Shown here in pieces: positions 16,422 through 34,627 of a DNA stretch of 64,000 nt (its first letter is position 1; each line of letters opens with the position of its first letter). The notes below the pieces were generated by a model. It was not told the origin of the DNA. It saw only the letters and a list, made by a program, of their open reading frames with translations, and searched no databases. The stretch is from an uncultured Ignavibacteria bacterium (GTDB lineage: Bacteria; Bacteroidota; Ignavibacteria; Kapaibacteriales; UBA2268): NCBI GenBank assembly GCA_903862655.1, contig CAIOZA010000027.1:62001-126000 (forward strand), given 5' to 3'. The translations under genes and the position numbers were made by a program.

Positions 16422-18668
16422 ATGAAATTAGCTGAACACCTTTATTCTGAAGTTGAAGTTTCTCTGGAAACTGCAATTGAATGTGGACTTACTGAAAATG
16501 AATATAAATTGATAACTGATTTTCTTGGTCGTACACCTACCTATACAGAGATTGGAATTTATGGTGTTATGTGGAGTGAACATTGCTCATATAAAAATTC
16601 AATTAAACTTTTAAAAACATTACCTCGCTCTGGTCCAAGATTGTTGGTTGGAGCAGGTGAAGAGAATGCTGGACTGGTGGATATCGGTGATGGTTATGCA
16701 ATTTGCTTTAAAATTGAAAGTCACAATCATCCTTCTGCTATCGAGCCTTTTCAGGGTGCGGCCACTGGTGTTGGCGGAATTTTAAGAGATATCTTTTCTA
16801 TGGGTGCAAGGCCTATCGCCGCATTAAATTCATTAAGATTTGGTAATTTGGATTCAGATAGAATAAAGTTTTTATTGAGAGGAGTAGTTGCCGGTATTAG
16901 TCATTATGGTAACTGTTTTGGAGTGCCAACAGTTGCCGGTGAGATTTATTTTGATGACTGCTACCATGATAATCCTTTGATTAATGCCATGGCAGTTGGA
17001 ATAGTTAAAGTTGGAGCAACAGCTACAGCTTCCGCCACAGGTCTAGGTAACCCAGTATTTATTGTAGGAAGCAGTACGGGTAGAGACGGTATACATGGAG
17101 CATCATTACTTGCTTCTAGAGAATTTGACGAGAAGACAGAGGATATGAGACCTACTGTACAAGTTGGGGATCCTTTTGCAGAAAAATTATTACTTGAAGC
17201 CACTCTTGAGCTGATTAAAGCAGATGTTGTTGTTGGAGTACAAGATATGGGAGCAGCAGGAATTTGTTGTTCTACCTCTGAAATGAGTGCTAAGGGTGAA
17301 TCAGGAATGTCAGTCGACCTTGACAAAGTCCCACTAAGAGAATCTGATATGTCAGCGTATGAAATTATGCTTTCTGAATCACAGGAAAGAATGCTTTTCA
17401 TCATTGCTCAAGGTAAAGAGGATGAAGCCATTAGAATTTGTAAAAAATGGGATGTTCCTATCACTCAAATTGGAAATATTACTGACGATGGCTTGCTTAA
17501 GATTTATAGAAATGGCAAACAAGTATGTGAATTGATTTCAGATCATCTTGTTCTCGGTGGAGGTGCTCCTCAAAATGATAGAGATTCTATAATACCAGAG
17601 TATCTCAAAGAAACAAGTACATTTGATCTTTCAACTTTATCAACCGATTTGTCAAGTGAAGAGATCTTTTGGAAAATTTTATCCTCACCAACCATTGCTT
17701 CTAAGCGTTGGATTTTTGAACAATATGATTCACAGGTTAGAACTAACACGGTCACCATCAAGGGTGATGCAGCTGTTATGAGATTGAAAGAGTTACCTGG
17801 AAAAGGAATAGCTGTAACAACTGATTGTAATAGTAAATATGTATATCTTAACCCTTATGAAGGTGCTAAGATAGCTGTAGCTGAAGCTGCAAGAAATGTT
17901 GTCTGTACTGGTGCTAAACCAGTTGCAATTACAAATTGTTTAAACTTTGGCAATCCTTATGATAAAGAGGTCTATTGGCAATTCAAAGAAGCTGTCAGAG
18001 GAATGGGTGATGCCTGCCGACATTTCGATACTCCAGTAACTGGTGGAAATGTTAGTTTCCATAATGAATCAAGAAACCATGCCATTTACCCGACTCCAAC
18101 TATAGGTATGCTTGGATTGATTGATGACATATCAAAAGTTGTAGGATCTGGATTCAGAAATGAAGGCGATATTATTTGTTTACTTGGAAATGACAGAGAA
18201 GAAATAGGTGGATCAGAGTATTTGAAACAAATTTTTGGCTTAATTACTGGTGAATCTCCAATTCTGGATTTAAACGAAGAATCAAGATTACATAAAACAA
18301 TACTTACAGCAATAGATAAATCATTACTCAGTTCAGCTCATGATTGCAGTGAGGGAGGAATCGCCATTACTTTAGCAGAAAAAGCTCTTACCTCAAAAAT
18401 ATTTGGAGCTGAAATTGAATTACAATCACTAAATAATGAATATATATTTGGAGAATCACAATCGCGTGTAATCGTTTCATTACCAACAGATAAACACTAT
18501 TTACTTGAGGAAATATGTAATGACAATACTGTAAGCATTCGCATAATAGGTAAGGTAACAAATTCTAATTTTACAATTAATGGTTTATTATCTACATCGG
18601 TTGAAAAATTATATTCAATATATGAAAATACCATTCCAGATCTGATGGAAGGTGATAGAATTAATTAG
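16422..18668 (+). CDS. purL: Phosphoribosylformylglycinamidine synthase subunit PurL
   Basis: ATP-dependent synthase subunit making FGAM from FGAR in purine synthesis. At 748 residues it is the small PurL that needs separate PurS and PurQ subunits; the C-terminal glutaminase domain of the large form is absent. The EIGIYGVMWSEHCSYKNS start, KIESHNHPSAIEPFQGAATG and GVQDMGAAGI segments are classic. The duplicated half is marked by VTGGNVSFHNES and SSAHDCSEGGIA. purS and purQ are not in the window. The short 5' region carries a TAnnTTTG element. Confidence 0.96.
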   Translation: MKLAEHLYSEVEVSLETAIECGLTENEYKLITDFLGRTPTYTEIGIYGVMWSEHCSYKNSIKLLKTLPRSGPRLLVGAGEENAGLVDIGDGYAICFKIESHNHPSAIEPFQGAATGVGGILRDIFSMGARPIAALNSLRFGNLDSDRIKFLLRGVVAGISHYGNCFGVPTVAGEIYFDDCYHDNPLINAMAVGIVKVGATATASATGLGNPVFIVGSSTGRDGIHGASLLASREFDEKTEDMRPTVQVGDPFAEKLLLEATLELIKADVVVGVQDMGAAGICCSTSEMSAKGESGMSVDLDKVPLRESDMSAYEIMLSESQERMLFIIAQGKEDEAIRICKKWDVPITQIGNITDDGLLKIYRNGKQVCELISDHLVLGGGAPQNDRDSIIPEYLKETSTFDLSTLSTDLSSEEIFWKILSSPTIASKRWIFEQYDSQVRTNTVTIKGDAAVMRLKELPGKGIAVTTDCNSKYVYLNPYEGAKIAVAEAARNVVCTGAKPVAITNCLNFGNPYDKEVYWQFKEAVRGMGDACRHFDTPVTGGNVSFHNESRNHAIYPTPTIGMLGLIDDISKVVGSGFRNEGDIICLLGNDREEIGGSEYLKQIFGLITGESPILDLNEESRLHKTILTAIDKSLLSSAHDCSEGGIAITLAEKALTSKIFGAEIELQSLNNEYIFGESQSRVIVSLPTDKHYLLEEICNDNTVSIRIIGKVTNSNFTINGLLSTSVEKLYSIYENTIPDLMEGDRIN

Positions 18669-18772
18669 CTATAAAAATCCATAATTGCACTTAATGAATT
18701 TTGCTTGTAACAAAATCGTCATTTTTTTATTATTACAGATAAATTAAGTGTTAACATGAAAGGAGTAACGTA

Positions 18773-21595
18773 ATGAAAAAAATACCAATATTTTTCATAT
18801 TCTTTCTTGTGTTATCTTTAAATATATACCCTCAGTATTGTCAAGTTAGCCTTCAAAACCCATCGATGGGATTTATTAGAATTTTCAATTTCAACGGAAT
18901 CTTAAACGCCAATAATACATATGATCCATCAGGTTATTCTGATTATTCTGCAACTTATAGAACTGATCTATGTTATCCGGGACAAACTTATAGCTTCCAA
19001 GTTGATGGATCTGGTTTTTGGGCTAATAATTCTGGAGTTACTATTTGGATTGATTTTAATCAAAATGGAAATTTTAATGAACCCAATGAAAAGGTTTTCA
19101 GATCAGTAGTTCCATCAAGTATGGTGATTAGTGGTTCTATTACAATTCCTACTAATGCTTTGGAAGGATCCACCAGGATTAGGGTATTATATTCCGATTA
19201 TTGGCCATATTTTTCACAGTATTTGGCTGATAATCCTTGTTGTTATAATTGTTTGAATGGAATGTATGGAGAGTATGAAGACTATCGGATAAGAATTGCA
19301 TCTTTTCAACCTACAATTATTTCTAGTACAAATGATACTATTTTGTGCACTGACTCTTTCTTAAAAGTTTCATACACCATTTCTGGTACATTTAATTCCG
19401 CTAATGTATTTTCAGTTCAGCTTTCTGATTCTTTGGGGAGTTTTACAAATCATACTACAATTGGATCATTAACGTCACAAATTTCTGATTCAATTATTTG
19501 CTACATCCCTAAATTTAACCCACCGGGAACTAGATATAAGGTAAGAATTGTATCATCTGATCCTGTTGTTATAGGTACACCAAACAACTCAAATATAGTA
19601 ATTAATAAATTACCCAATCCATCAATATTAGGTAATTCAAATGTGTGTGATAGAAGTTATTATTCTTATCAAACATTGACAGCTTCTAACAGACTATGGA
19701 CTTGGTCTTCAGAAAAAGGAGTGGTTTATCAGTCACAAACAAGTCCAAATAAAGCAATTATTTACTGGGGTGATTTAGCACCGGAAGATGTGCCTGTTTA
19801 TGATACTTTGAAAGTCATTGAATTGAATACAATCACAGGTTGCAAGGATAGCAACTTGTTCCAGGTAACAATTTACCCCAAACCACATCTCGAAATTTTG
19901 GGTAAAAACTCTGTTTGTGAGCTGGAGGAAGTTGTATATTCTGTCACAAACACAAACTTATCAAGTTATAAGTGGATAGCTAACAGAGGTTCAATAATTG
20001 GTTCCGATAACACTAATACTGTAATTGTTAAATGGGGAAGCACTGCTTCAACAAATGGTAGTGTAAAACTAATAGGAGTTAATCAGAATGGATGTAAAGA
20101 TACAACAGAAATTTTAGTAACAATTAATAATTTGCCTTCACCAAAAATAACTGGGGACTTAATATGTTGTGAAAAAACTCCACAGATTTATGCCAGTAAT
20201 TCTAAGGCTGATGAAACGGATCAATGGCTTGTTATTAATGGGACAATTATAGGTGAATCAACTACTAAAGCTGTTATTATCGAATGGTCTCAAAAGGGGA
20301 CTGGGCAAGTAGCATTAATTCAGAAAAATTCAATAACTGGTTGTTCTGATACTGCCAGATCCGTCATTAACATACTACCACGGCCTTCTGCTAGTATAAA
20401 TGGAGGATTAACGGTTTGCTCATCAGAATGGAGCTATTACACAACTGAATCTCAACCAGGCTATATATACGATTGGAATATTATCGGTGGTAAAGTTTCT
20501 GGTCCAATCGATAATGCTGGAGTATTTATAGAATGGAAATCAACTTCTGGAAGAGGTGTCCTAAGGTTGATAAAAGAAAATTCTCAGGGTTGCCGTGATA
20601 CCAGTTCCATAAATATTGATATCAATGAAAAACCTAAGGCTTCCATCGATGGTCCAACAATGTCAAAAGTTAATTCTGTTGTTTCTTACGAAACTACTCA
20701 GGATGATAAGATTAATTATAAATGGGAGGTTTTGAAGGGGGGCAAAATATTAGGATCAACAACGGAGTCTAAGGTTGATATAAAATGGGAATTCGGCCCA
20801 GAAGGGAAACTTCAATTAATTCAGCAGGATCGAGCTTTCGGATGTTCTGATACAGCTTTACTGACTAATTCGATTACAAATTCAAATGTTATTATTAATG
20901 GTTATAGTGAAGTTTGTGAAAATAGTGAGTGGATATACACAAGTGATCTACCTCTAGGAGCAGAAAATAAATGGTCAGCCTTTGGGGGGAGTATTGTTGG
21001 GTCATCTCTTGGAAAATCAGTGGTTGTACGATGGAGTAATAAAGGCAATGGAATAATAAATCTTATTCAAACAATACAGAAAGATAATTTTAAAGATTCA
21101 TCATCAATGTATGTGAATATAAATCCTGTTCCTGAGAAACCCAAAATCACTCGTCAAAACAATCAATTGAGTTCTAGTGCTTTTTTAAGTAATCAGTGGT
21201 ATCTTGATGGAGTTAAACTACTTGATTCAACTGATCAATTCCTTTATCCTTCAAAGAATGGAAACTATCAGGTTAGTTCATACCAAAAGCCTTGTACTAG
21301 TGAGTTGTCACTTGCGGTCTATGTAAACTTATTAGGTGTTGAAGATCAGGAAAGTTACTCAGAATTGAAAATCATTCCAAACCCAGCAAACAGTGAATTT
21401 AAAATAATATCTCTCAATGATTTGATTACAGCAGTTAAAATCTTTAATATACTTGGTGAATCCATTTTTTCCGAAGAGAACTTGACTTCATCAGTATTTA
21501 ACGTTAAAAGTATTAACCTTCAATCAGGAGTATTTTATATAATGATCAGTACCGAGAAACAATACATTGTAAAAAAGATATTAATATATCATTAA
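18773..21595 (+). CDS. Secreted T9SS protein with GEVED-like domain and PKD-like repeats
   Basis: A 940-residue exported protein of unknown function. A signal peptide (ending near YPQYCQ) precedes a GEVED-type domain around residues 50-175 (VTIWIDFNQNGNFNEPNE...YGEYEDYRI). From about residue 285 to 790 there are six tandem PKD/Ig-like units of 80-90 residues. Most open with I-x-G-x-x-x-VC and contain the W-x-x-x-x-G-x-I-x-G and V-x-I-x-W patterns, with Cys pairs conserved in most units. The C-terminus is a T9SS type A sorting domain (IIPNPANSEFKI...LQSGVFYIMI). Such proteins are surface adhesins or scaffold components; no catalytic domain is visible. The start has an AAAGGAG site. Confidence 0.82.
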   Translation: MKKIPIFFIFFLVLSLNIYPQYCQVSLQNPSMGFIRIFNFNGILNANNTYDPSGYSDYSATYRTDLCYPGQTYSFQVDGSGFWANNSGVTIWIDFNQNGNFNEPNEKVFRSVVPSSMVISGSITIPTNALEGSTRIRVLYSDYWPYFSQYLADNPCCYNCLNGMYGEYEDYRIRIASFQPTIISSTNDTILCTDSFLKVSYTISGTFNSANVFSVQLSDSLGSFTNHTTIGSLTSQISDSIICYIPKFNPPGTRYKVRIVSSDPVVIGTPNNSNIVINKLPNPSILGNSNVCDRSYYSYQTLTASNRLWTWSSEKGVVYQSQTSPNKAIIYWGDLAPEDVPVYDTLKVIELNTITGCKDSNLFQVTIYPKPHLEILGKNSVCELEEVVYSVTNTNLSSYKWIANRGSIIGSDNTNTVIVKWGSTASTNGSVKLIGVNQNGCKDTTEILVTINNLPSPKITGDLICCEKTPQIYASNSKADETDQWLVINGTIIGESTTKAVIIEWSQKGTGQVALIQKNSITGCSDTARSVINILPRPSASINGGLTVCSSEWSYYTTESQPGYIYDWNIIGGKVSGPIDNAGVFIEWKSTSGRGVLRLIKENSQGCRDTSSINIDINEKPKASIDGPTMSKVNSVVSYETTQDDKINYKWEVLKGGKILGSTTESKVDIKWEFGPEGKLQLIQQDRAFGCSDTALLTNSITNSNVIINGYSEVCENSEWIYTSDLPLGAENKWSAFGGSIVGSSLGKSVVVRWSNKGNGIINLIQTIQKDNFKDSSSMYVNINPVPEKPKITRQNNQLSSSAFLSNQWYLDGVKLLDSTDQFLYPSKNGNYQVSSYQKPCTSELSLAVYVNLLGVEDQESYSELKIIPNPANSEFKIISLNDLITAVKIFNILGESIFSEENLTSSVFNVKSINLQSGVFYIMISTEKQYIVKKILIYH

Positions 21596-21632
21596 CTGGT
21601 CTTTATCTTTGTTCTATTTGTCAAATTTACAT

Positions 21633-22751
21633 CTATATTAACTTAAATTCTTTAATGACTTTTTCGCAAAGATATAGCATTTTTTGTGCAGATGTATCCC
21701 ATGAAAAACCTGTAGCCCATTCAAGAGCTCCATTAGAGAATTGATTTAATGATTTTTCAGTACAGATAATTTGTTTGATTTTGGAGGTTAGATCATTTAT
21801 TTTACCAAATTCATATAATAGACCGGATTGACCATCATTAACTGAATCCCTTAACCCGGGCACATTTGCCGATACAACAGCAGTGCCACATGCATTTGCC
21901 TCAATATTAGTTATACCCCAACCTTCTTTAATGGAAGTATTTACTACTACCCATGATTCTGATAATAATTCAATTTTTTGTTTTTCAGATACGAACCCAA
22001 AGAAAGTTGTAGAATTATCAATAGATAAATGCTTTGCGAGATTTTTAAGTTCAGTTTCATAATTCCCTCTACCCATAATATAGAGCTTTGCTTCAGGATA
22101 CTCTAAGGTTAATTCTTTAAAAGAGTATAGCAAATGTTGAACACTCTTATACTTCTTCAATCTGCCAAAATATGTAATAACTGGACTTTCATTTTTATTT
22201 GAAACCTTCATTGGATATTCTGTTTGATGAATTGCATTTTCGATTATTGTGAAATTATTTCTACTAAAGCCTCTTTCTATGAATTCATCAAGTGTGCTTT
22301 GTGATACAACTGCAAACTGAATTTTTTTATATATTAAATTTACAAGAAATTCTGCTAAATAAACATAAATGCCGCTGACTACATCAACTTCCCTAAAAAT
22401 ACTAGTTCCAAAAAAATGATGACTAATTGCCAATAATGGTTTTTTCACAAAAAGTGGAGTATAAAATGGAATTTTATTTATATCATCAATAATTATATCA
22501 AAATTATTTTGTTCTATAAGTTTAATATAATTTTTCTTTACAATAAAATTGAACAGGGATCTGTTACCTCTTCGGATCACTCTAATTCCATCAATTAACT
22601 CTTCAAATGGTTCACCATCTATGCAACAACAAAGAAGTGTTACTTCATGACCCATTATAACTATTCTTTTAAAGATTTCATGTAAATGTACTTCAGCTCC
22701 ACCACCAAATGGATTTTTTATATCCTGCCAATTTATTACTAAGATCTTCAT
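21633..22751 (-). CDS. GT4-family glycosyltransferase
   Basis: A 372-residue GT-B glycosyltransferase. The N-terminal MKILVINWQDIKNPFGGGAEVH is the acceptor-domain start of a group 1/GT4 enzyme, and the C-terminal half has the donor-binding pattern ITYFGRLKKYKSVQHLL and later EGWGITNIEANACGTAVV with the conserved acidic residues. No membrane segment is present; it probably works at the cytoplasmic face on a lipid-linked or surface glycan. It stands alone, with no sugar-polymer cluster around it, so donor and acceptor are unknown. Confidence 0.85.
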   Translation of the reverse strand: MKILVINWQDIKNPFGGGAEVHLHEIFKRIVIMGHEVTLLCCCIDGEPFEELIDGIRVIRRGNRSLFNFIVKKNYIKLIEQNNFDIIIDDINKIPFYTPLFVKKPLLAISHHFFGTSIFREVDVVSGIYVYLAEFLVNLIYKKIQFAVVSQSTLDEFIERGFSRNNFTIIENAIHQTEYPMKVSNKNESPVITYFGRLKKYKSVQHLLYSFKELTLEYPEAKLYIMGRGNYETELKNLAKHLSIDNSTTFFGFVSEKQKIELLSESWVVVNTSIKEGWGITNIEANACGTAVVSANVPGLRDSVNDGQSGLLYEFGKINDLTSKIKQIICTEKSLNQFSNGALEWATGFSWDTSAQKMLYLCEKVIKEFKLI

Positions 22752-24800: not shown

Positions 24801-27800
24801 TTATCCTCTGTTCAATTTTAACTTATAACATTTGGTATTATTATTTGATATTAATGAGTGGAAATATTCATTCTTAACTTGATCGTTATCACTGATATAA
24901 GTAATATCTAAGAGCTTTTCAACAATATAACCTGTATTAGCAAATATCTGCTGCTTCAATGAATGTTCCCAGCCTTCAAACCAAATCATCAATTTCTCTT
25001 TATTGAATTCATTACCATCATAATGAACCAGCAAATCAATATCTGATTTCGAACCTGCACTTTTGTTATAAACAGTACCAAATAAATACATATTAATCAC
25101 GCCAAACTTCTGTGAATTAAGATTAGAAGCAATGTGCTCAGCATATTCCCATCGTATTTCCCAAGGCTCAGTAGATCTGGCTTCAACTTCTGAGTTTGTA
25201 GAATTTAAAGCTATCTTGTGGGTTGTATTTGTCAAATAACACAAGGCACTACTTTCATCTGCATTCATTAGCATTCTAGCTTTTTTGCCGTCTGCAATTT
25301 CAGGAACATTTATCAATTTTATTACTTTTGACAAATAAGCAAATTCAGGGAAAAATTGTTCTAATTTATTTGCCGAATTTATAAAGAAATCATCATTGAA
25401 TAATATACCGGATTCATCAGGATAAAGTGGTAGGTATTTAATATTTGCTTCTACTAAATCTTGAAAGAAATGAGTGCCAAATGAAAGATCGGGTACATAA
25501 TTGCCTTTTGCTCTGGCTATCTCAATAAGCATAGATGTATTGAAAATATCAGTATATGTTACCGAAACACCTAGACGTATGTCTCCACGGCTGCCCCATC
25601 TGCCAGGTCCCATTAGTATGAAACTTTTCTTTGGTAGTATTTGATTTAATCTTCCAATTACTCTGCCTATTGATTTAAGATCTTCTAACGATTGAACATT
25701 TGAATATTCTAACGGATCAACATAGACAATATACTGGATATCTGGTACTTTTCCATTTGATACAAATTTGTTTGCAGTAAACAAAATGTTTTCTTTACTA
25801 ATATTCTTTGGGATTACATCTGGACTTGATATACTGTTTGAACTCTGAGGTCTGCACTGTAAGATAAACAAATTGTCTCCGTCAGATGCAAATTCAAGAT
25901 CAATAGGTGCTTTCATGCTATCACGAATAATGTTAAGCATCTTTGAAATTTGCTTTAACATTTTCCCATCATTTATTAAATTATCAAATGTAACAATAAC
26001 ATCATCCCTTTTTGTGTCAATACCAAGACCAATAGGAGCTTTTAGATGATGTTGCTCTCTAATTGAGAAAATCTTATTAATTGCTGGAAACTTATCTCCA
26101 ATTTCCTTAAGAAGATCATCAATTTTCAAAGATTCAAATGAATTTGTTCTGATATTAATTAAGTCAATATACTTTGGAGCATATCCGACAATTTGTTCAA
26201 AAGATAGATTTAGTCTAAGTGCTGGTTTACCTGGTGATATTAAAATTGGATAATCATCACCAATGCGATCAACTGCTCTTGTACCAAGCCCTGGGACTAA
26301 TCGGATGAGCCCATCCTCTCGTTCAATTCTCGGGGACCATCTGAATTCATTAAAACTAAAAGCAACACCTGCATAAGCCGGGAAAAAGTAGTTACCTGCA
26401 TGAGTACCCACTACTTCCTGTATCATTATTCCCATTTCCTCGTTAAAGTCTAGCAGTCCTCTTTCAATCCTGTAACCTATGGGATCAGGTCCAAAAACTG
26501 AAGCATAGACTTCTGCAATAGCATCACATAACGACTCGAGCCGCTCCTGCTTTGTTCCTTGATTTGCGAGGAACAAGCTTTTATATTTACCAGCAAAAAT
26601 AGCACCCAACCTATCTTCGAGTAAACTGGAACTTCTGACAATAATTGGACTATCTCCAAAATCATCCAGAGCTCTTGATAATCCGTTTATTAATTCAGCC
26701 GGAAATGATGCATTTTTAAAGGCTTGAATAACATAACTGTACTCATGCCTTATATCATTAATATCCTTGTATTTCTGTTCAATAACATCTTCAAGATTAT
26801 TATAATACATAAAATGCATAATAGCATCAGAAGTTATGTACCATGTTTTCGGCATCTTAATATTATTAAATAATTCTTTATTTTCTTCGGAACTTTCAAT
26901 GATTTTCTTAGCTAGAAATAGTCCCGCGGTTTTACCACCTAATTTACCATGACCATCAGGTGGAAAAATCAAATTTTTTAAAAGGTCATCAAAATCTTGT
27001 AATGTGCAAAGATCTTTTGCAATATTAATATATTCCAGCTGATCTGATAGAAAACGTCTTATCAGTGATACTCTTATTCCCTTATTCAATGGTGAATCAT
27101 CACTGTTCGACAGTGGATTTACTATTAAGTACCTTCTTATAGCGTCATAAATTTCGTTTATTGGAGTATGTGGATTCGCTAGAGTCCTAACAAGGAAACT
27201 GGACTTTTCTTCATTTATCCACTTTTGAATATTATTTAGAATATCCTGCTCAGATAAATATTTTTTTGCTATTTCAAATGTCTCATTACTCAAATTGAAT
27301 GATTGTTCAAGTATTTGTTTCTTTGATGGTTTATTAATTTCAGTCTTGATTTCATCGGAATCCAAATTTCCAATCTTTGCAAAGATTTCCGCAGCTTCCT
27401 GAATACCTCTGCAGAATAGAAGTACTATCATTTTTCGGGAGATAATTGAGAACAAGTTTTGATCGGTATGTTTAATAAGATTCAGAATTACATTCCATTC
27501 AGGTTTCTTATTATTATCTTCATTTTCCCTTTGGCTGTTGAGCTCACTATAAATGTCATTTAGTTTATTATATAAAAGATAATGACTAATACGATCAGCT
27601 ATAGTATTGATCAGCTTTCTTTCGTCAACAGTGAATGAACCTTCGTCAGATTTTGGCAATTCTATTAAATAATAAACATCTATTCTGCCGGCAACAAGGT
27701 CATGAATCTTTAAGTCTGCAGAAATTACCCATGGTGTTTCCTTAAAACCTTCATGGGAATATACCTTATCTTCGATAACTATTCTTGATTCGCAGTACGA

Positions 27801-27968
27801 TATATACTGAAATCCGGTTGGAATAACTTTGACTAATTTTTCAAAAATTGCATCAGGGTTTTCTTTATTTGTATTCAATACTTCATCAACTTTATAAAGA
27901 CAGTGCAATTCTTTAGCACGTTCTTCTAATGAGCGGATGAAATAATTCATGTCATTTTCTTTTTTCAT
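24801..27968 (-). CDS. PPDK-type ATP-binding domain / nucleotidyltransferase fusion protein
   Basis: A 1055-residue cytoplasmic protein. Residues about 10-150 look like a GAF-type sensory domain. Residues about 335-720 form a pyruvate phosphate dikinase/PEP-synthase N-terminal ATP-binding domain (GKLGGKTAGLF, IIVRSSSLLEDRLGAIFAG, GIMIQEVVG, LFILQCRPQ). Next comes a conserved block PGRWGSRGDIRLGVSV near 800. Residues about 955-1010 have the nucleotidyltransferase pattern FGTVYNKSAGSKSDIDLLVH (GS-x-DIDLLV). The phosphohistidine swivelling domain (TSHAA-type) and the PEP/pyruvate barrel are absent, so it is not a PEP synthase. Related PEP/pyruvate-binding domain proteins occur in other bacteria and archaea, but their reaction is not established. 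Confidence 0.75.
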   Translation of the reverse strand: MKKENDMNYFIRSLEERAKELHCLYKVDEVLNTNKENPDAIFEKLVKVIPTGFQYISYCESRIVIEDKVYSHEGFKETPWVISADLKIHDLVAGRIDVYYLIELPKSDEGSFTVDERKLINTIADRISHYLLYNKLNDIYSELNSQRENEDNNKKPEWNVILNLIKHTDQNLFSIISRKMIVLLFCRGIQEAAEIFAKIGNLDSDEIKTEINKPSKKQILEQSFNLSNETFEIAKKYLSEQDILNNIQKWINEEKSSFLVRTLANPHTPINEIYDAIRRYLIVNPLSNSDDSPLNKGIRVSLIRRFLSDQLEYINIAKDLCTLQDFDDLLKNLIFPPDGHGKLGGKTAGLFLAKKIIESSEENKELFNNIKMPKTWYITSDAIMHFMYYNNLEDVIEQKYKDINDIRHEYSYVIQAFKNASFPAELINGLSRALDDFGDSPIIVRSSSLLEDRLGAIFAGKYKSLFLANQGTKQERLESLCDAIAEVYASVFGPDPIGYRIERGLLDFNEEMGIMIQEVVGTHAGNYFFPAYAGVAFSFNEFRWSPRIEREDGLIRLVPGLGTRAVDRIGDDYPILISPGKPALRLNLSFEQIVGYAPKYIDLINIRTNSFESLKIDDLLKEIGDKFPAINKIFSIREQHHLKAPIGLGIDTKRDDVIVTFDNLINDGKMLKQISKMLNIIRDSMKAPIDLEFASDGDNLFILQCRPQSSNSISSPDVIPKNISKENILFTANKFVSNGKVPDIQYIVYVDPLEYSNVQSLEDLKSIGRVIGRLNQILPKKSFILMGPGRWGSRGDIRLGVSVTYTDIFNTSMLIEIARAKGNYVPDLSFGTHFFQDLVEANIKYLPLYPDESGILFNDDFFINSANKLEQFFPEFAYLSKVIKLINVPEIADGKKARMLMNADESSALCYLTNTTHKIALNSTNSEVEARSTEPWEIRWEYAEHIASNLNSQKFGVINMYLFGTVYNKSAGSKSDIDLLVHYDGNEFNKEKLMIWFEGWEHSLKQQIFANTGYIVEKLLDITYISDNDQVKNEYFHSLISNNNTKCYKLKLNRG

Positions 27969-28310
27969 AAATCGATTTATAATAATTGTACACTAACAAA
28001 AATCTAAATTAACAATAAAATAATTTTCGGATTAAGATCATTTCAATAAAAGATAAATTTTATCTCTAAATATTGTAATTTCAGCTTCCATTATGAAAAT
28101 TGAAAATTAAAATTTCACTCCCCAATGCTCCATTGGAACGACCTTGAAATTGAAAAATCCGATTGAAAAGCTGAAGCAATAAAATATATTTCAAAACCGG
28201 ACAAAAAATTGCGAAATAAATTTGTATATAACATTTATTTTATTATTTTTGTATCTATGATTTATAAGCAGACTAAAATATCTGAATTAAAATATATAAA
28301 TGGAGAATTT
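27969..28310. other. Intergenic region upstream of the nos operon
   Basis: This AT-rich gap of about 340 bp separates the divergent PPDK-like gene from the nos cytochrome. It holds inverted repeats: CCAATG-CTC-CATTGG at 28122-28136, and an outer pair TTCAGCTT (28080) / AAGCTGAA (28168) that encloses it. Further on are the nos promoter candidate and the cytochrome ribosome-binding site. No coding sequence is apparent; the TTG-initiated extension of the cytochrome frame from 28209 is not credible. I find no exact TTGAT-N4-ATCAA FNR box. Confidence 0.5.
28221..28251 (+). promoter_or_regulatory. Candidate nos operon promoter (-33 TTTG / -7 TAnnTTTG)
   Basis: TTTG at 28221-28224 and TATTTTTG at 28244-28251 match both halves of the Bacteroidota promoter consensus with 19 bp between them, within the usual 19-21 bp. 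This would start transcription roughly 50 bp before the cytochrome ATG. It is the only site in the window where I found both elements at good spacing. Confidence 0.5.
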
Positions 28311-28751
28311 ATGTTTAAGAAAAATGCCTTTAAATGTAAAAACACAAAGTTATTACTTTCAGCTTTTACATTATTATCAATCACTTTAATTGCATCCTGC
28401 TCTGGTGGTGGAGATACTGAATTTACTGTAATTAAAGGAGCTGAAATTGGAGCTTTTAATCAAGCACAAGCCAATATGGGAAAAAAGATTTTTTCAGAGA
28501 AATGTGCTTCATGCCATAAATATGACATAAAGCTTGTTGGGCCTCCATTAGGTACTGTGGTCAAAAGACGTTCAACTGATTACATTCTAAGCCAAATTCT
28601 TCATCCTGATAAAATGATTGCCAATAATGATACTACAAAGGCTCTTCTTGCAAAGTTTCTGACTCAAATGCCGAATCAGCACTTAAATATGATCGAAGCA
28701 AAAGCTGTCTTAATGCACCTTACAGACGTGTCTAATGGTGGCGGTAAGTAA
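28311..28751 (+). CDS. Lipoprotein monohaem cytochrome c of the nos operon
   Basis: A 146-residue class I-like cytochrome c. The ATG is chosen because GGAGAA lies just before it and the product then begins with a lipoprotein signal (TLIASCSGGG, lipidated Cys30). The haem motif is Cys65-Ala-Ser-Cys68-His69 and the distal ligand is probably the Met in LTQMPNQHL. It is located 50 bp upstream of nosZ, the usual place of a cytochrome in clade II nos clusters, where it is thought to deliver electrons from the quinol-cytochrome chain to NosZ. The lipid anchor would hold it at a membrane face in the periplasm. Confidence 0.88.
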   Translation: MFKKNAFKCKNTKLLLSAFTLLSITLIASCSGGGDTEFTVIKGAEIGAFNQAQANMGKKIFSEKCASCHKYDIKLVGPPLGTVVKRRSTDYILSQILHPDKMIANNDTTKALLAKFLTQMPNQHLNMIEAKAVLMHLTDVSNGGGK

Positions 28752-28801
28752 ATCGGATATCGAACACTAATTTATTAATTTATAATTATTATGGGATTAT
28801 T

Positions 28802-30751
28802 ATGAAACGTGTTTTATGGCTTTTTGGAGCAGTTGTCATTGTTACATCAATGATTATTCTTATTACAGCCTGTCCATCTACCAAAAAAGATGGAGTTGCC
28901 TCTGATGCAGCTTCTAAAGTATATGTTGCACCAGGTGAATATGATGAATTATATGGATTTTTCTCAGGTGGATTTAGTGGTCAGATTTCAGTATATGGAC
29001 TTCCAAGTGGTAGATTATTCCGTGTGATTCCTGTATTTTCTGTAGATCCTGAAAAAGGTTATGGATTTAATGAAGAAACAAAAGCGATGCTTAATACATC
29101 ACATGGCTTTGTTCCTTGGGACGATGCACATCATCCTGAATATTCAATGAAGGCTGGAATGCCCGATGGAAAATGGGTGTTCATCAATGGAAATAACACA
29201 CCACGTATTGCCAGAATTGATCTTACAACATTCAGAACGACCGAAATTATTGAATTACCCAATAGTGCAGGTAATCATTCATCTCCTTTTGGAACGGAAA
29301 ATACTGAATATGTCGTAGCAGGAACACGATTCAGCGTACCCATCCCAAATGAGGATGTTGAAATTAGTAAATATGCTGAGAAATTTAAGGGAGCACTATC
29401 CTTTATCAAGGTTGATCCCAATAATGGTAGTATGGATATTGCTTTTCAAATTCTTATGCCCGGATTTAATTATGACTTATCCAGATCCGGAAAAGGTAAA
29501 TCACATGGCTGGAGCTTCTTCTCTATGTACAACACAGAGCAGGCAAGTACAATGTTAGAAGTTAATGCAAGCCAAAATGACAAGGATTTTATAGCAGCTA
29601 TCAACTGGAAAAAAGCTGAAGAATATGTAAAGCAAGGCAAATTTAAAGAATTTACTTCAAGCTATGTCCATAACTATATTGATCCAAACACTCACATGGC
29701 AGTCTCTGAAAAGAGAAATAAAGTCAAAGTTCTGATTCCTTCAGAATGTCCAGGCCTTGTTTATTTTATTCCAACTCCAAAATCACCACATGGTTGCGAT
29801 GTTGATCCAACAGGTGAATTTATTGTTGGTGGCGGAAAACTTGCTACAGTAATTCCAGTCTTTTCATTTGACAAAATGATTAAAGCAATTGGGGCGAATA
29901 AAGTAGATAAAGTTATCGATGGTATTCCTGTATTAAATTATCAGTCAGTTATAGCAGGAGAAGTTGAGAAACCTGGATTAGGCCCACTTCACACCGAATT
30001 TGATGCTAATGGATTTGCATATACATCAATGTTTGTTTCGTCTGAGATCGTAAAATGGAGCCTAAAAGACTTTAAGGTTAAGGATAGAATACCAACATAT
30101 TATTCAATCGGTCATTTAATGATTCCTGGTGGAAACACAGTTAAACCTTATGGTAAATATGTCATAGCTTTAAACAAAATCACAAAAGACAGATATCTTC
30201 CAACAGGACCTGAACTATGTCAATCTGCTCAATTGTTCGATATATCTGGTGACAAGATGAAACTGTTGCTCGACTTTCCTACAATAGGCGAGCCCCATTA
30301 CGCATTAGCAATACCTGCTAGTTTGATTAAAGAACAACAATTGCAATTCTACAAGATGGAAGAGAATAAAAATCCATATAGAACCATCAAAGAAGCAGAT
30401 GCTAAAGTTGTTAGAGAAGGTAATGTTGTCCATGTTTACATGACTTCGATTAGGTCTCATTTCAAGCCTGATAATATTGAAGGAGTCAAAGTAGGCGACG
30501 AAGTATATTTCCATGTAACCAATCTGGAACAGGATTGGGATGTTCCTCACGGATTCGCTGTGATGGGAAATACAAATAGTGAATTATTGATCATGCCTGG
30601 GGAAACCAATACAATTAAATGGATGCCAAAAGAAGTTGGAATATTTCCATTCTATTGTTCTGATTTCTGTTCTGCACTTCATCAGGAAATGCAGGGTTAT
30701 GTCAGAGTATCTCCAGCAAATTCTAAAACCAAGTTATCCTGGAATAACTAG
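28802..30751 (+). CDS. nosZ: Nitrous oxide reductase, clade II (Sec-dependent)
   Basis: Copper enzyme reducing N2O to N2 in the periplasm. The 649-residue protein has no twin-arginine signal; a Sec-type signal ends in a lipobox (LITAC), so it may be a lipoprotein. CuZ ligands include His110-His111 in DDAHHPEYS, and the seven-bladed propeller contains the conserved SPHGCDVDPTGE and PLHTEFD segments. The C-terminal cupredoxin domain carries the CuA motif Cys619-x3-Cys623-x3-His627-x2-Met630 (CSDFCSALHQEM), with the upstream His in VPHGFAV. Sec signal, cytochrome upstream and nosL/DFY downstream without nosR define clade II. All key ligands I can check are intact, so it should be functional. Confidence 0.96.
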   Translation: MKRVLWLFGAVVIVTSMIILITACPSTKKDGVASDAASKVYVAPGEYDELYGFFSGGFSGQISVYGLPSGRLFRVIPVFSVDPEKGYGFNEETKAMLNTSHGFVPWDDAHHPEYSMKAGMPDGKWVFINGNNTPRIARIDLTTFRTTEIIELPNSAGNHSSPFGTENTEYVVAGTRFSVPIPNEDVEISKYAEKFKGALSFIKVDPNNGSMDIAFQILMPGFNYDLSRSGKGKSHGWSFFSMYNTEQASTMLEVNASQNDKDFIAAINWKKAEEYVKQGKFKEFTSSYVHNYIDPNTHMAVSEKRNKVKVLIPSECPGLVYFIPTPKSPHGCDVDPTGEFIVGGGKLATVIPVFSFDKMIKAIGANKVDKVIDGIPVLNYQSVIAGEVEKPGLGPLHTEFDANGFAYTSMFVSSEIVKWSLKDFKVKDRIPTYYSIGHLMIPGGNTVKPYGKYVIALNKITKDRYLPTGPELCQSAQLFDISGDKMKLLLDFPTIGEPHYALAIPASLIKEQQLQFYKMEENKNPYRTIKEADAKVVREGNVVHVYMTSIRSHFKPDNIEGVKVGDEVYFHVTNLEQDWDVPHGFAVMGNTNSELLIMPGETNTIKWMPKEVGIFPFYCSDFCSALHQEMQGYVRVSPANSKTKLSWNN

Positions 30752-30776
30752 TCCTATTTAAAAATGACTAAACTTT

Positions 30777-30826
30777 GAAAGCCGGAAATAATCTCATGTA
30801 TATTTGAGATTATTTCCGAGACTTTC
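30777..30826 (+). repeat. Long perfect hairpin between nosZ and the membrane-protein gene
   Basis: CGGAAATAATCTCA (30783-30796) pairs perfectly over 14 bp with TGAGATTATTTCCG (30805-30818) around an 8-nt loop; an outer GAAAG/CTTTC pair extends the stem. It lies 25 bp after the nosZ stop and about 40 bp before the next start. No T-run follows, so it more likely stabilises the nosZ transcript or attenuates read-through than fully terminates. Confidence 0.6.
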
Positions 30827-30863
30827 ATTCAAAAAATGATTTATAATTTTCTGGTAGATAGTA

Positions 30864-31451
30864 ATGAAACCGAAAACTAAAATTTTGTTCTCTTGTTCTA
30901 TACTCCTCCTGATTTTAATGTATTTCTTCCCAATTTGGAGCATATCTCTCGAAGCACCTCAATATCCAGAGGGTTTAGGACTTTACATCAATATATCGTC
31001 AATGACCGGTCATAAGACTCACGATTTAAACAGCATTAATAATCTGAATCATTATATCGGTATGAAAGTAATCAAACCAGAATCAATTAATGAGCTTAAA
31101 ATAATGCCTTTTGTGATTGGATTCATGATGTTGTTTGGAGTTATTATTTTACTTATAAATAAGAAGAAGCTAATCTGGGTGTGGATAATTATTTTCATGA
31201 TTATCTCATTTATTGGATTATATGATTTTTATTTGTGGGGATATGATTATGGTCACAATCTTGATCCAAAAGCAATTATTAAAATTCCCGGTATGTTTTA
31301 TCAGCCCCCAGTGCTTGGTACTAAGCAATTATTAAACTTTACAGCTCATTCATATCCTTCAAAAGGAGGAATAGCTGCATTCTTGTCAATAGTTATTGCA
31401 TTTATTGGGATAGGGGTAGATAAAAGAAAAAAAAGAAAGGATAAGATATGA
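30864..31451 (+). CDS. nos-cluster four-helix membrane protein of unknown function
   Basis: A 195-residue protein with four hydrophobic segments (about residues 8-28, 80-99, 104-125 and 170-187). The non-cytoplasmic loops contain several His and Met residues (TGHKTHDLNSINNLNHYIGMK; YDYGHNLDP; KIPGMFYQPP; NFTAHSYPS). The stop overlaps the nosL start by 4 bp (ATGA), so translation is coupled. Uncharacterised membrane proteins occupy this position in other clade II nos clusters. A role in copper handling or electron transfer to NosZ is a guess based on location and on the His/Met content. Confidence 0.72.
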   Translation: MKPKTKILFSCSILLLILMYFFPIWSISLEAPQYPEGLGLYINISSMTGHKTHDLNSINNLNHYIGMKVIKPESINELKIMPFVIGFMMLFGVIILLINKKKLIWVWIIIFMIISFIGLYDFYLWGYDYGHNLDPKAIIKIPGMFYQPPVLGTKQLLNFTAHSYPSKGGIAAFLSIVIAFIGIGVDKRKKRKDKI

Positions 31452-31897
31452 AATATATGTTTTTTTTTATATTATCATTATTGATTTTATCGTGTACTGC
31501 TAAGAATAAAAAAATTCAATTTGGAGTAGATTTGTGTTCTAATTGCTCAATGAAAATTTCAGATTCGAAATACGGTGCTGAAATTGTAACTGATAAAGGT
31601 AAGATATATCTTTTTGATTCAATTGAATGTTTAATTAGTAAATTATCCCAGACTGATAAAAATATTGCTGGCAGCTACAAGTCTCTCTGGACTGTGGATT
31701 ATCTAAGTCAGGGTGATCTGATTGATGCTAAAAAAGCATTATACTTGAGAAGTGAATCACTGCACTCTCCAATGGGGTTGAATATTGGATCATTTATGAA
31801 TCGGGATTCACTTAGTCAATTTATTAAATCAGATTCTGATAAAGTAATTAACTTTTCTGATCTAATGGAGCTTGTTAAAAAAGAATGGGAATTATAA
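31448..31897 (+). CDS. nosL: NosL copper-binding lipoprotein
   Basis: A 149-residue lipoprotein (LLILSC, lipidated Cys16) that in other organisms carries Cu(I) to apo-NosZ. The metal-binding section is visible as Cys30-Ser-Asn-Cys33-Ser-Met35 (DLCSNCSMKI), followed by the family pattern YGAEIVTDKGKIYLFDSIECL. It starts on the stop codon of the membrane-protein gene and its last 13 bp overlap nosD. Gene order and motif make the call safe despite overall divergence. Confidence 0.9.
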   Translation: MKYMFFFILSLLILSCTAKNKKIQFGVDLCSNCSMKISDSKYGAEIVTDKGKIYLFDSIECLISKLSQTDKNIAGSYKSLWTVDYLSQGDLIDAKKALYLRSESLHSPMGLNIGSFMNRDSLSQFIKSDSDKVINFSDLMELVKKEWEL

Positions 31898-33138
31898 GAA
31901 TATATAAAGTTTTCTTGTTGCTCTTATACATTGCGTTACAAATTTCACCTGTGTTTCCGAGAGTTATTTTTGTAAATCCATCAGGAGAAATAAAGACCAT
32001 TTCTCAAGCTATTAGTAATTCAAATTCTTACGATTCAGTATTCGTTGTAAAGGGGTATTATAAGGAATCCAACCTGAACATTAATAAACCTCTTACTCTT
32101 ATCGGCACTGATTATCCTGTGATTGATGGCACATACAGCAATTCAAACATCTTGACGGTAACCTCTTCTAATGTTATAATTTCTGGTTTTATCATAAAGA
32201 ATGTTGGTGTTTCAGCTGTTAATGATAATGCAGGAATAAAAGTGACGAATTCTAATTACTGTAAGATCGAGAATAACCGTCTATTTAATACATTTTTTGG
32301 TATCTATCTGGCAAAATCTAAAAATTGTTATATTCTCGGTAATGAAGTCAAAGGTAATGGAAATGTCGAATCTCAATCCGGCAATGGGATCCATCTATGG
32401 CAATGCTCAACGATTGTAATTCAAAAGAATAGAGTGGTAAATAACAGAGATGGAATTTACTTTGAATTCGTAAGCAATTCAAGTATTCAATATAATTATA
32501 GTTCAAAAAATAAAAGATATGGTCTCCATTTTATGTTTTCGGATAACTGCGATTATATTAATAATGATTTTATTGATAATGGAGCTGGTGTAGCCGTCAT
32601 GTACACCAAAAACATAAAGATGCAAAATAACAGGTTTATTGATAACTGGGGTGCTTCAGCTTATGGATTACTTCTTAAAGACATAAGAGATAGTTTCATC
32701 TATGACAATGAGTTTAAGAATAATACTATTGGAATTTTGGCCGAGGGATCGAACCGACTCGACATTAAAAGAAATAATTTTATTAGGAATGGGTGGGCTG
32801 TTAAAATAATGGCAAATTGCATAGATGATAACTTCAGTAGAAACAACTTTATTTCAAATACATTTGACGTAGCTACTAATAGTAAGCAGAGCTATAATAA
32901 ATTCCATGAAAATTACTGGAGTGAATATGATGGGTATGATTTAAACAATGATAACTATGGCGATGTGCCCTATCATCCAGTTAGTCTGTTTTCATATCTG
33001 ACTTCTCAGAATGAACCTGCCATTATTCTATTGAGGAGCTTATTTATTAATTTTTTAGATGCCGCCGAAAAAGTATTTCCGTCAATCACACCCGAAGCTC
33101 TTGTCGATAAAAAACCTTTGATGAGGCCAATAAAATGA
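31885..33138 (+). CDS. nosD: NosD copper-processing periplasmic beta-helix protein
   Basis: Exported 417-residue protein with an N-terminal signal peptide and a long right-handed parallel beta-helix made of CASH-type repeats rich in Asn (IENNRLFNTFFGIYL, IQKNRVVNNRDGIYFE, IQYNYSSKNKRYGLHF). NosD acts with the NosFY ABC transporter in CuZ assembly on NosZ. The C-terminal NYWSEYDGYDLNNDNYGD segment is typical of NosD. The start lies inside nosL and the stop overlaps nosF by 4 bp. Confidence 0.92.
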   Translation: MGIIRIYKVFLLLLYIALQISPVFPRVIFVNPSGEIKTISQAISNSNSYDSVFVVKGYYKESNLNINKPLTLIGTDYPVIDGTYSNSNILTVTSSNVIISGFIIKNVGVSAVNDNAGIKVTNSNYCKIENNRLFNTFFGIYLAKSKNCYILGNEVKGNGNVESQSGNGIHLWQCSTIVIQKNRVVNNRDGIYFEFVSNSSIQYNYSSKNKRYGLHFMFSDNCDYINNDFIDNGAGVAVMYTKNIKMQNNRFIDNWGASAYGLLLKDIRDSFIYDNEFKNNTIGILAEGSNRLDIKRNNFIRNGWAVKIMANCIDDNFSRNNFISNTFDVATNSKQSYNKFHENYWSEYDGYDLNNDNYGDVPYHPVSLFSYLTSQNEPAIILLRSLFINFLDAAEKVFPSITPEALVDKKPLMRPIK

Positions 33139-33848
33139 TTGAAGTTAAGAATCTTTTTAAAAGCTTTGGAAAAAATCTTGTTCTCAATAATATAAATATC
33201 AAGATTGATCAAAGTAAGATAACCATTATAGCCGGACCAAATAGTTCTGGGAAGACTACTCTTATTAAATCAATTTTAGGCCTTGTAAATATTGATAAAG
33301 GCGATATTTTTGTTAATGAGGAAAATAATAGAAATAGTACAATATATCGCGAGAAAATAGGCTATATGCCCCAAATAGGCAGATATCCTGATAATCAGTC
33401 CATTCGTGATGTTCTTGACATGATCAAGGATCTTCGGGGAATAAAGCAAATTGACAAAGAGGATGAGTTAATATCGATATTTGGATTGGAAGAACACATA
33501 ACCAAAAAAATGAGCACACTGTCAGGTGGGACCAGGCAAAAAGTAAGTGCTGTTCTGGCTTTGATGTTCGAACCTGACATACTAATTTTGGACGAACCTA
33601 CAACCGGGCTTGATCCTGTGTCTGCATCGAAAATCAAAGAAATTATAATTGAAGAGAAGAATAAAGGAAAAACTGTCATTATCATTTCCCATATTATGAG
33701 TGAGGTTGAAGAACTTGCTGACAAATTAATTTTTCTTCTCGATGGAGAGATAAAATTTCAGAATACTGTGATTAAAATTCTTGAACAAACAAATGAAAAA
33801 TCCCTTGAAAAGGCAATTGCAAAGTTAATAAGTTTGAATAAATTATGA
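33135..33848 (+). CDS. nosF: NosF ABC transporter ATPase
   Basis: A 237-residue ATPase that powers NosDFY. Walker A is GPNSSGKTT, the signature is LSGGTRQKVSAV, Walker B is ILILDEPTTGLDP, and the switch His lies in IIISHIMSEVEEL. The MPQIGRYPDNQSIRDVL stretch after Walker A is characteristic of NosF. It overlaps nosD and nosY by 4 bp on each side, giving tight translational coupling. Confidence 0.93.
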   Translation: MIEVKNLFKSFGKNLVLNNINIKIDQSKITIIAGPNSSGKTTLIKSILGLVNIDKGDIFVNEENNRNSTIYREKIGYMPQIGRYPDNQSIRDVLDMIKDLRGIKQIDKEDELISIFGLEEHITKKMSTLSGGTRQKVSAVLALMFEPDILILDEPTTGLDPVSASKIKEIIIEEKNKGKTVIIISHIMSEVEELADKLIFLLDGEIKFQNTVIKILEQTNEKSLEKAIAKLISLNKL

Positions 33849-34627
33849 ATAATTTCTTAAAAATTTTACATTTCGAATTAATCAATGTACTGAAAAGTAA
33901 ATGGATCATATTCTATGGCCTTTCATTCTTTTTCATTACAGAAGCAATTTTCAGATTAGGAGGAAGTGGCTCCAAAGCAATAGTAAGCCTGCTAAATCTA
34001 TCTTTAATTTTAATTCCGATTATCAGTATTATTTTCGGAACAATATATGTGTATAATTCCAGAGAATTTATTGAATTATTATTGACGCAGCCGATTAAAC
34101 GATCTCAAGTATATTTTGGATTATATCTGGGCTTGACATTTCCGCTATCAATTTCTTACTTGATTGGAATAATGATTCCATTTCTCATTCATGGAATAGC
34201 AGAACCAATTGTTCTAACTAGTCTTCTATTGTCTGGGATCTTCAATACGTTTATATTTACAGGAATAGCTATTGTTATAGCTTTAAAATTTGATGATAAA
34301 TCAATCGGAATAGGTGTAGCTCTTCTGTTTTGGTTCTTCTTCTCCATAATATACGATGGACTGGTTATGATGCTTATATGGCAGTTCGGTGATTATCCTC
34401 TTGAGATTCCTCTTATTCTTTCATCAATCCTTAATCCATTAGATTTGGGCAGAGTGATGGTGATGTTGAAATTTGACTTAGCAGCGTTGATGGGTTACAC
34501 AGGAGCTATTTTTGAAAAGTTCTTTGGAGAAACTATTGGCATTGTTATTTCTTTAATTATGATGTCAATTTGGGTGATTTTCCCATTTTTTTATGGTCTA
34601 AAGATATTTAAAACAAAGAATTTTTAG
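33845..34627 (+). CDS. nosY: NosY ABC transporter permease
   Basis: A 260-residue integral membrane protein with about six hydrophobic helices, of the ABC-2 permease type. The characteristic NosY segments SREFIELLLTQPIKRSQVYFG and LNPLDLGRVMVML are present. It forms the membrane part of the NosDFY transporter. It is the last gene of the nos operon; an AT-rich inverted repeat (AATAATATT/AATATTATT, 34654-34692) between it and the convergent kinase gene may end transcription. Confidence 0.93.
   Translation: MNNFLKILHFELINVLKSKWIIFYGLSFFFITEAIFRLGGSGSKAIVSLLNLSLILIPIISIIFGTIYVYNSREFIELLLTQPIKRSQVYFGLYLGLTFPLSISYLIGIMIPFLIHGIAEPIVLTSLLLSGIFNTFIFTGIAIVIALKFDDKSIGIGVALLFWFFFSIIYDGLVMMLIWQFGDYPLEIPLILSSILNPLDLGRVMVMLKFDLAALMGYTGAIFEKFFGETIGIVISLIMMSIWVIFPFFYGLKIFKTKNF

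Follow-up and report, generated by a model that had tools for sequence, protein, structure and literature searches.

A dikinase-like protein family encoded beside glutamate dehydrogenase genes in Bacteroidota and relatives: candidate regulators of the enzyme

We analyzed a 64,000-nucleotide stretch of DNA from an uncultured Ignavibacteria bacterium (GenBank assembly GCA_903862655.1, contig CAIOZA010000027.1, positions 62,001 to 126,000; hereafter the window). In it, a single uninterrupted open reading frame (ORF) at 24801-27968 on the minus strand encodes, by the ORF list and its translation, a protein of 1055 residues. This protein consists, in order, of a GAF-like domain, a helical region, an ATP-grasp domain of the pyruvate phosphate dikinase (PPDK) type, a swivel-like domain and a nucleotidyltransferase (NTase). 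We found that genes encoding the ATP-grasp and swivel-like domains recur beside genes for glutamate dehydrogenase (GDH), the meeting point of carbon and nitrogen metabolism, and a link between the family and GDH is very probable. Whether the family is a sensor-controlled dikinase that lacks an acceptor domain of its own and controls GDH by transfer of a phosphoryl group, or in proteins like the window's possibly a nucleotidyl group, seems to us evenly poised. Only tentatively do we propose a wider GDH control system across Bacteroidota and their relatives, whose engine would be of dikinase type, neither a histidine kinase nor a Hanks-type kinase. Such an engine would charge a cryptic phosphohistidine and modify GDH in response to a GAF or receiver signal, with the NTase joining in some lineages.

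Linkage of the family to glutamate dehydrogenase

Near full-length relatives of the window's protein with the same domain order, 47-56% identical to it, are present in many genomes, so neither the ORF nor its combination of domains is a chance product. Three architectures are built on one ATP-grasp/swivel core. The L-type, to which the window's protein belongs, runs from the GAF-like domain to the NTase; the S-type (about 580 residues) is the bare core; and the R-type (about 1000 residues) has two receiver-like domains and a DUF5752-like stretch ahead of the core. In both S- and R-types, the chain stops about 110 residues beyond the first residue of a GRWG motif in the swivel-like domain. By eye, the phosphoaccepting Asp is missing from the first receiver of the R-type, and the second retains the acidic pair as well as Asp, Ser and Lys; the Pfam family Response_reg scores in the second receiver part in one R-type protein (L122; L numbers are our locus handles) and in the first receiver in two others. 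Our sampling covered this phylum and a plasmid collection. Of 247 genomes of the phylum, 74 had some match and 21 an L-type. A search of the window's own genome with the protein found, besides itself, just two matches, both in the GAF region, and no R-type; a scan of viral contigs with our alignment A1 gave 152 pattern matches and no relative.

The survey of gene neighbors across genomes, which a first-pass annotation of the window had suggested, brought out GDH as the constant neighbor: GDH is present at 46 of 57 core-bearing loci, and the next commonest family, a broad one that contains aminotransferases, at 17 of 57. Of 41 R-type genes, 33 immediately adjoin a GDH gene, as do 9 of 11 S-type genes, and 19 of 24 L-type genes have one within 5 kb. 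The core genes behind these counts were picked by the motifs GxGRWG, then G[STA]HF, and RSSS. Nine loci (L103-L111) had been fetched because GDH was seen nearby, and the final R-type count took 40 of the 41 listed R-type matches plus one in L005, omitting a match with a stop (L135), while an S-type gene of 572 residues (L044) was missed by the motif. One of the 11 motif-typed S genes is at a contig edge, and in another case an R gene intervenes before GDH. Three loci among the 24 L-types come from a separate search of relatives; two of these three are near-identical, L004, from a metagenome-assembled genome (MAG) named Ignavibacteriae and among the window's near relatives, and L006. The latter (JAGXRP010000077.1) is labeled Desulfobulbaceae, yet its gene content and sequence are nearly identical to those of L004, and it is probably a mislabeled or misbinned MAG.

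The genes commonly run gdh - S - L, and his genes (hisG-, hisD-, hisC- and hisH-like by eye) often come next. In each of the 11 motif-typed S-L pairs the two genes abut or overlap (gap 0 to -4 bases), which suggests coupled translation. The linked GDHs belong to three clades, with mean between-clade identities of 29, 31 and 50%. Clade 1 (446-453 residues) is mostly found upstream of R, clade 2 (428 residues) upstream of S or L, and clade 3 (415 residues) downstream of R. Examples of all three score as glutamate dehydrogenase in NCBIfam, the first clade above the curated cut-off for NADP-specific GDH and the other two below theirs. Because three different GDH lineages are linked to the family, operon drift is hard to invoke as the reason for the linkage.

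The two genes also occur together. A GDH at least 67% identical to that of L004 is found in 21 of the 247 genomes, and these are the same 21 that have an L-type; the next GDH stands at 53%. Within the window's family (54 genomes, some of the assemblies incomplete), 43 genomes have an L-type and 51 have the GDH. The two genes are arranged head-to-head in 12 of these 43, where about 260-380 bases separate the matches. The equality of the 21-genome sets, all family tallies and the head-to-head pairs were read off printed lists.

The arrangement extends to gut Bacteroidales. In a RefSeq record of Parabacteroides distasonis, gdhA lies head-to-head with the gene for WP_041525632.1, an R-type protein, with a second GDH gene about 3.5 kb further on, and Phocaeicola massiliensis is similarly arranged. 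A Prevotella record has an R-type, with no GDH in the stretch fetched. The R-types beside gdhA bear the uninformative name "PEP/pyruvate-binding domain-containing protein."

Two other kinds of gene were noticed by eye at these loci. A prolyl-oligopeptidase-like gene (about 675-890 residues) recurs near GDH or the core in L-type loci (L044, L049, L051, L052) and in R-type loci such as L103, L104, L107, L109, L112 and L122. At L103, L104, L105 and L113, genes resembling PAS-type sensor kinases and LuxR-type response regulators lie between or beside the R-type/GDH units; they are possibly an upstream two-component input.

The ATP-grasp domain and the domain that follows it

The first-pass annotation held that the protein keeps the ATP-binding domain of PPDK and lacks the phosphoenolpyruvate (PEP)/pyruvate barrel, and both points were borne out. 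PPDK_N covers residues 342-722 (25803-26945) with a Pfam E of 9.4e-59, in agreement with the alignment and the model matches. Neither the barrel nor the PEP-utilizers family (PF00391) is among the five Pfam families listed up to E 10, and the chain continues into the NTase. Beyond PPDK_N and NTP_transf_2, there is no convincing Pfam family in the 1055 residues. The PEP synthase models of NCBIfam match the ATP-grasp part only, the best at 67.4 bits against a cut-off of 598. The source genome also encodes an ordinary PPDK (954 residues, with both the barrel and PF00391) and an EI-like protein, the only two proteins with PF00391 in our search of it, so the 1055-residue protein is not the cell's PEP-making enzyme.

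The ATP site is, judged by its residues, intact. K346 (GGK), R445 (VRSSSxxED), E692 (DxEFA), and Q704 and R706 (LQxRP), positions that bind ATP and metal in known members of the family, are kept in all 77 aligned core sequences; at D690, 24 of them have Asp and 53 have Glu. These 77 were picked by GxGRWG and then G[STA]HF, so the conservation of the picked letters is circular there; independent evidence of conservation comes from alignment A1 and from the 24 L-types, the window's included, which were chosen by score. Most ATP-site motifs fall in register with their counterparts in PPDK and PEP synthase relatives; in the PPDK row the stretch around R445 was misaligned. In rifampin phosphotransferase (RPH), Lys22, Arg117 and Thr136 are named as the residues that bind polyphosphate (PMC4844700).

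A PGRWGSRGDIR block, noted as conserved in the first-pass annotation, proved to be part of a domain of about 200 residues, approximately residues 728-915 (25224-25787), which also carries SNG and SFGTHFFQDL. In the form GPGRWG..DI, the block is present in all 24 aligned L-types. No Pfam family was found in this domain in the six members scanned, and its alignment (A2) had no match among Protein Data Bank (PDB) sequences at E 10. The placement of GRWG against GGxTSHAA by MAFFT in a mixed alignment was not used.

We describe this domain from structure models, built with AlphaFold2 from six sequences. The model of the full protein is moderate (predicted local distance difference test, pLDDT, 62; predicted template modeling score, pTM, 0.47), and that of the domain alone is fair (pLDDT 78, pTM 0.79). 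In VIA-align comparisons, the best matches of the ATP-grasp in the full model are RPH (5hv1, Z 23.0) and PEP synthase (2ols, Z 22.9). Residues 330-913 of the full model align to residues 4-467 of 2ols over 365 residues, and residues 330-912 to residues 3-508 of PPDK (1kbl) over 348 residues (Z 15.0); by comparison, the isolated ATP-binding domain of RPH (5hv6_A) aligns over only 289. In the model, the swivel-like domain follows the ATP-grasp at the position of the phosphohistidine domain in PEP synthase and PPDK. In the domain model the elements run strand-helix-strand-(loop with GRWG)-helix-strand-(SFGTH) helix-strand, which we take to be the order in the central domain of PPDK. Aligned alone, the domain gives weak matches, at Z 5.2 to residues 476-582 of 2e28, the extra C-terminal part of a pyruvate kinase, and at Z 4.7-4.8 to PPDK residues 366-519, the central domain.

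H833 (codon 25470-25472) is the candidate phosphohistidine on grounds of conservation and the domain model. It is conserved in alignment A1 and in 24 of 24 score-chosen L-types, and as residue 126 of the domain model it is the second residue of helix 125-133, the last helix in the order given above. With a swivelling topology in the expected place and H833 at the matching helix, the phosphohistidine part is probably present. The absence of this part, claimed in the first-pass annotation, holds only at the level of sequence, where no profile match revealed a hidden phosphohistidine domain; what the models show instead is a structural resemblance in the right place. Residues 728-915 are probably an extremely diverged phosphohistidine domain that is unrecognizable in sequence, to which structural evidence of moderate strength points. 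We lean toward a swivelling fold for these residues, and hold the phosphohistidine chemistry, which we infer from that fold, with less confidence.

Sensor, helical and nucleotidyltransferase parts, and the surroundings of the gene

The N-terminal domain (residues 1-140; 27549-27968) has no Pfam match; as had been suggested at first pass, it is GAF-like. Residues 1-144 of the predicted full model align by VIA-align to GAF structures at Z 9-11 with a root-mean-square deviation of 2.3-3.2 Å, including 3p01_A (Z 11.4, 127 residues aligned), the GAF domain of Aquifex NLH2 (4g3v, Z 9.9) and that of NifA (8jrc, Z 9.8). The domain is missing from some relatives, for example L024-L026, where the match begins at 133-158. 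The helical region (residues 150-330; 26979-27521) was delimited from the secondary structure of the model, where confidence is low. By eye, it resembles in position the DUF5752-like stretch of the R-types.

At the C-terminus is a minimal (MNT/pol-beta) NTase, assigned to residues 935-1050 (24819-25166) from Pfam, its motif and a PDB sequence match. NTP_transf_2 scores above its cut-off at residues 952-1003 (Pfam E 3e-5). The NTase seen in the first-pass annotation is real, with its motif revised from GS-x-DIDLLV to G-T-(x)n-SDIDLLV; it has the carboxylates D976 and D978 and a third Asp, D1021. This carboxylate motif is kept in 19 of the 24 L-types. In the other five the metal ligands are gone: L005, L023, L025 and L026 are without the domain or have largely lost it, and L022 (= L057) keeps its length without the motif. 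With 5 of 24 L-types lacking an intact NTase, this domain is an accessory and not part of the core. The match among PDB sequences is UTP:RNA uridylyltransferase 1 (E 0.0077), and the closest named NTase profile in NCBIfam is MntA, with E 0.0091 in the window's protein and 0.0012 in that of L004. In PADLOC the NTase domain matched PDC-S09 and PDC-M05A only, and there were no signs of a defense locus.

In the window's family, what stays constant is the stretch from the helical region through the ATP-grasp to the swivel-like domain; many members have no GAF (the match begins near residue 145) or no NTase (it ends near 913). In-frame stops were seen within the aligned stretch of the L-type copies of five genomes (G293, G282, G250, G160 and G279), and some copies may be decaying.

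Divergent from the gene in the window, at 28209-34627 on the plus strand, is a cluster that by eye resembles nos (nitrous oxide reductase) genes, with ORFs like cytochrome c, NosZ (649 residues), NosL, NosD, NosF and NosY. It has no gene cluster in common with the 23 other loci compared. PurL and a glycosyltransferase gene lie near the L-type gene in the window (16422-22751), L004 and L006.

Proposed mechanism, alternatives and known systems

Enzymes of the PEP synthase type transfer phosphate of ATP to a histidine of a swivelling domain, which then delivers it to an acceptor bound by a third domain. In the family described here, the ATP-grasp would bind ATP and pyrophosphorylate or phosphorylate H833 on the diverged swivelling domain, as in PEP synthase and RPH. 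Because there is no pyruvate-, drug- or glucan-binding domain, and because the S-type consists of two domains alone, the phosphoryl group would pass to a partner in trans, most likely GDH or a complex that contains it, and this modification would set GDH activity. The signal would be sensed by the GAF domain or, in the R-type, by the double receiver; 2-oxoglutarate as a GAF ligand is a guess of ours, prompted by NifA-type GAF domains and by GDH chemistry. In most L-types the NTase might add a second modification, with GDH, the S-type partner or the L-type protein itself as its target. A sensor controlling phosphoryl or nucleotidyl transfer, as conceived in the first-pass annotation, fits this anatomy, given the ATP site and the carboxylates kept in 19 of 24; its target, called unknown there, is now likely GDH, by neighborhood. 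To judge by the title of a 1996 paper by Baggio and Morrison (J Bacteriol 178:7212), which is cited in a study of Bacteroides fragilis, genes downstream of gdhA in Bacteroides thetaiotaomicron reportedly act in trans on GDH activity. The B. fragilis study itself lists a single GDH as three spots and takes spots of equal mass and different isoelectric point to suggest isoforms (PMC4539542). Both reports are consistent with covalent control of GDH, but neither establishes this family as its agent.

Several observations weigh against this proposal. Sequence-level support for a phosphohistidine domain is absent: beyond the Pfam and PDB-sequence negatives, hhalign of residues 708-927 (46 core sequences) against 32 PPDK/PEP synthase-type and 8 EI-type His domains from relatives gave scores within the range of column-shuffled and reversed controls. 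The best Z of the domain alone, 5.2, is tied with chaperonin (TRiC), MccF-like, aconitase X and other chains, several of which we presume to belong to the same swivelling fold class. Its best Foldseek match has E 0.07, with none at E 0.001, and confidence in the full model is low just before and at H833. On the side of GDH, 8 of the 41 R-type genes are not immediately flanked by it, and among the 54 genomes of the window's family 11 carry the GDH but no L-type and 3 an L-type but no GDH, so that the match of 21 and 21 genomes is not exact in closer sampling. In the window's genome, the GDH of the matching subtype is on another contig (C108), in a neighborhood without a core gene. By eye, transposase-like ORFs lie a few kb from this GDH (L137), a possible reason why it stands apart from the L-type gene. 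Finally, gene linkage alone is no proof that GDH is modified. That the L-type nearly always comes with GDH, and that GDH can go without the L-type, suits an accessory regulator.

The core could instead be a metabolic enzyme that phosphorylates a small molecule near GDH, such as glutamate, 2-oxoglutarate or a derivative, in the way that PEP synthase acts on pyruvate, with the GAF or receiver domains only tuning it. GDH linkage would also suit a pathway partner, and the known relatives of this ATP-grasp (PEP synthase, PPDK and RPH; for RPH, PMC4844700) phosphorylate small molecules. However, no acceptor-binding domain is present, the S- and R-types ending so soon after GRWG; sensor domains are fused to the core in R- and L-types; and the 11 genomes with GDH but no L-type, together with the three linked GDH clades, suit a regulator. 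We consider a metabolic role unlikely. Likewise unlikely, in our view, is that residues 728-915 are no phosphohistidine domain at all and that the core is an allosteric sensor of energy charge, binding or hydrolyzing ATP and acting through the NTase or through contacts with GDH. The missing sequence match to PEP-utilizers and the weak stand-alone fold match speak for this view. Against it stand the constancy of H833 in all 24 score-selected L-types, the way in which the full model fits PEP synthase collinearly over 365 residues (289 for the isolated ATP-binding domain of RPH), and an NTase that five of 24 L-types have lost or keep only in degenerate form.

If H833 is charged by ATP, the phosphoryl group might also go to a receiver of the R-type, in cis or in trans, in a new His-to-Asp relay upstream of GDH control that involves no direct modification of GDH. 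The second receiver, with its acidic pair, Asp, Ser and Lys and its Response_reg score in L122, would be suited to this. Yet by eye the Asp is missing from the first receiver, the one with Response_reg scores in two other R-types, L- and S-types have no receiver, and the window's genome has no R-type; such a relay is improbable. A scheme centered on the NTase, in which the protein would AMPylate or uridylylate GDH in GlnE/GlnD fashion and the dikinase core would serve only as a regulatory ATP sensor, draws on the carboxylates kept in 19 L-types and on the profile matches to MntA and PDC-S09. It is very improbable: the R- and S-types, which bear most of the GDH linkage, have no NTase, and the five L-types that lost theirs kept the core, three of them with GDH still close by.

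Should control of GDH by an acceptor-less dikinase be correct, the chemistry of PEP synthase would be used here in regulation and not in metabolism, the naming of a widespread family would be corrected, and the reported trans effect of gdhA-downstream genes in B. thetaiotaomicron would gain a testable mechanism. The ATP-grasp, GAF, receiver and NTase parts were already known. We found in print neither their combination, nor the unrecognized swivel-like domain, nor the GDH linkage; in the open-licence literature searched, neither the family nor its GDH link is described, which is weak evidence of absence since most subscription papers lie outside it.

Among known systems, the minimal NTases of the MntA type differ in that the NTase here is a fused C-terminal domain that scores far below the family cut-off. 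If our reading is right, GlnE and GlnD are alike in tying an NTase to the control of a nitrogen-assimilation enzyme; neither is known to have a dikinase core. With RPH the family shares a plausible dikinase chemistry, and the RPH ATP-grasp is its best model match, although RIF_Ptrans_rph of NCBIfam reaches only 37.8 bits against a cut-off of 999. RPH carries a drug-binding domain and, at its C-terminus, a His domain (PMC4844700), whereas here the swivel-like domain follows the ATP-grasp and an acceptor domain is absent. The Bacteroidales R-type WP_041525632.1 has the ATP-grasp and GRWG/HFF core, 29.5% identical over query residues 339-897, with gdhA adjacent; judging from other R-types, it has a receiver-type N-terminus in place of GAF and no NTase. 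PEP synthase and PPDK (PF01326, PF00391 and barrel) share the ATP-grasp with the same key residues and, in the model, the position of the swivel-like domain. They are set apart by their barrel and recognizable TSHAA-type motif, and the family described here by its additional GAF and NTase domains and its GDH neighborhood.

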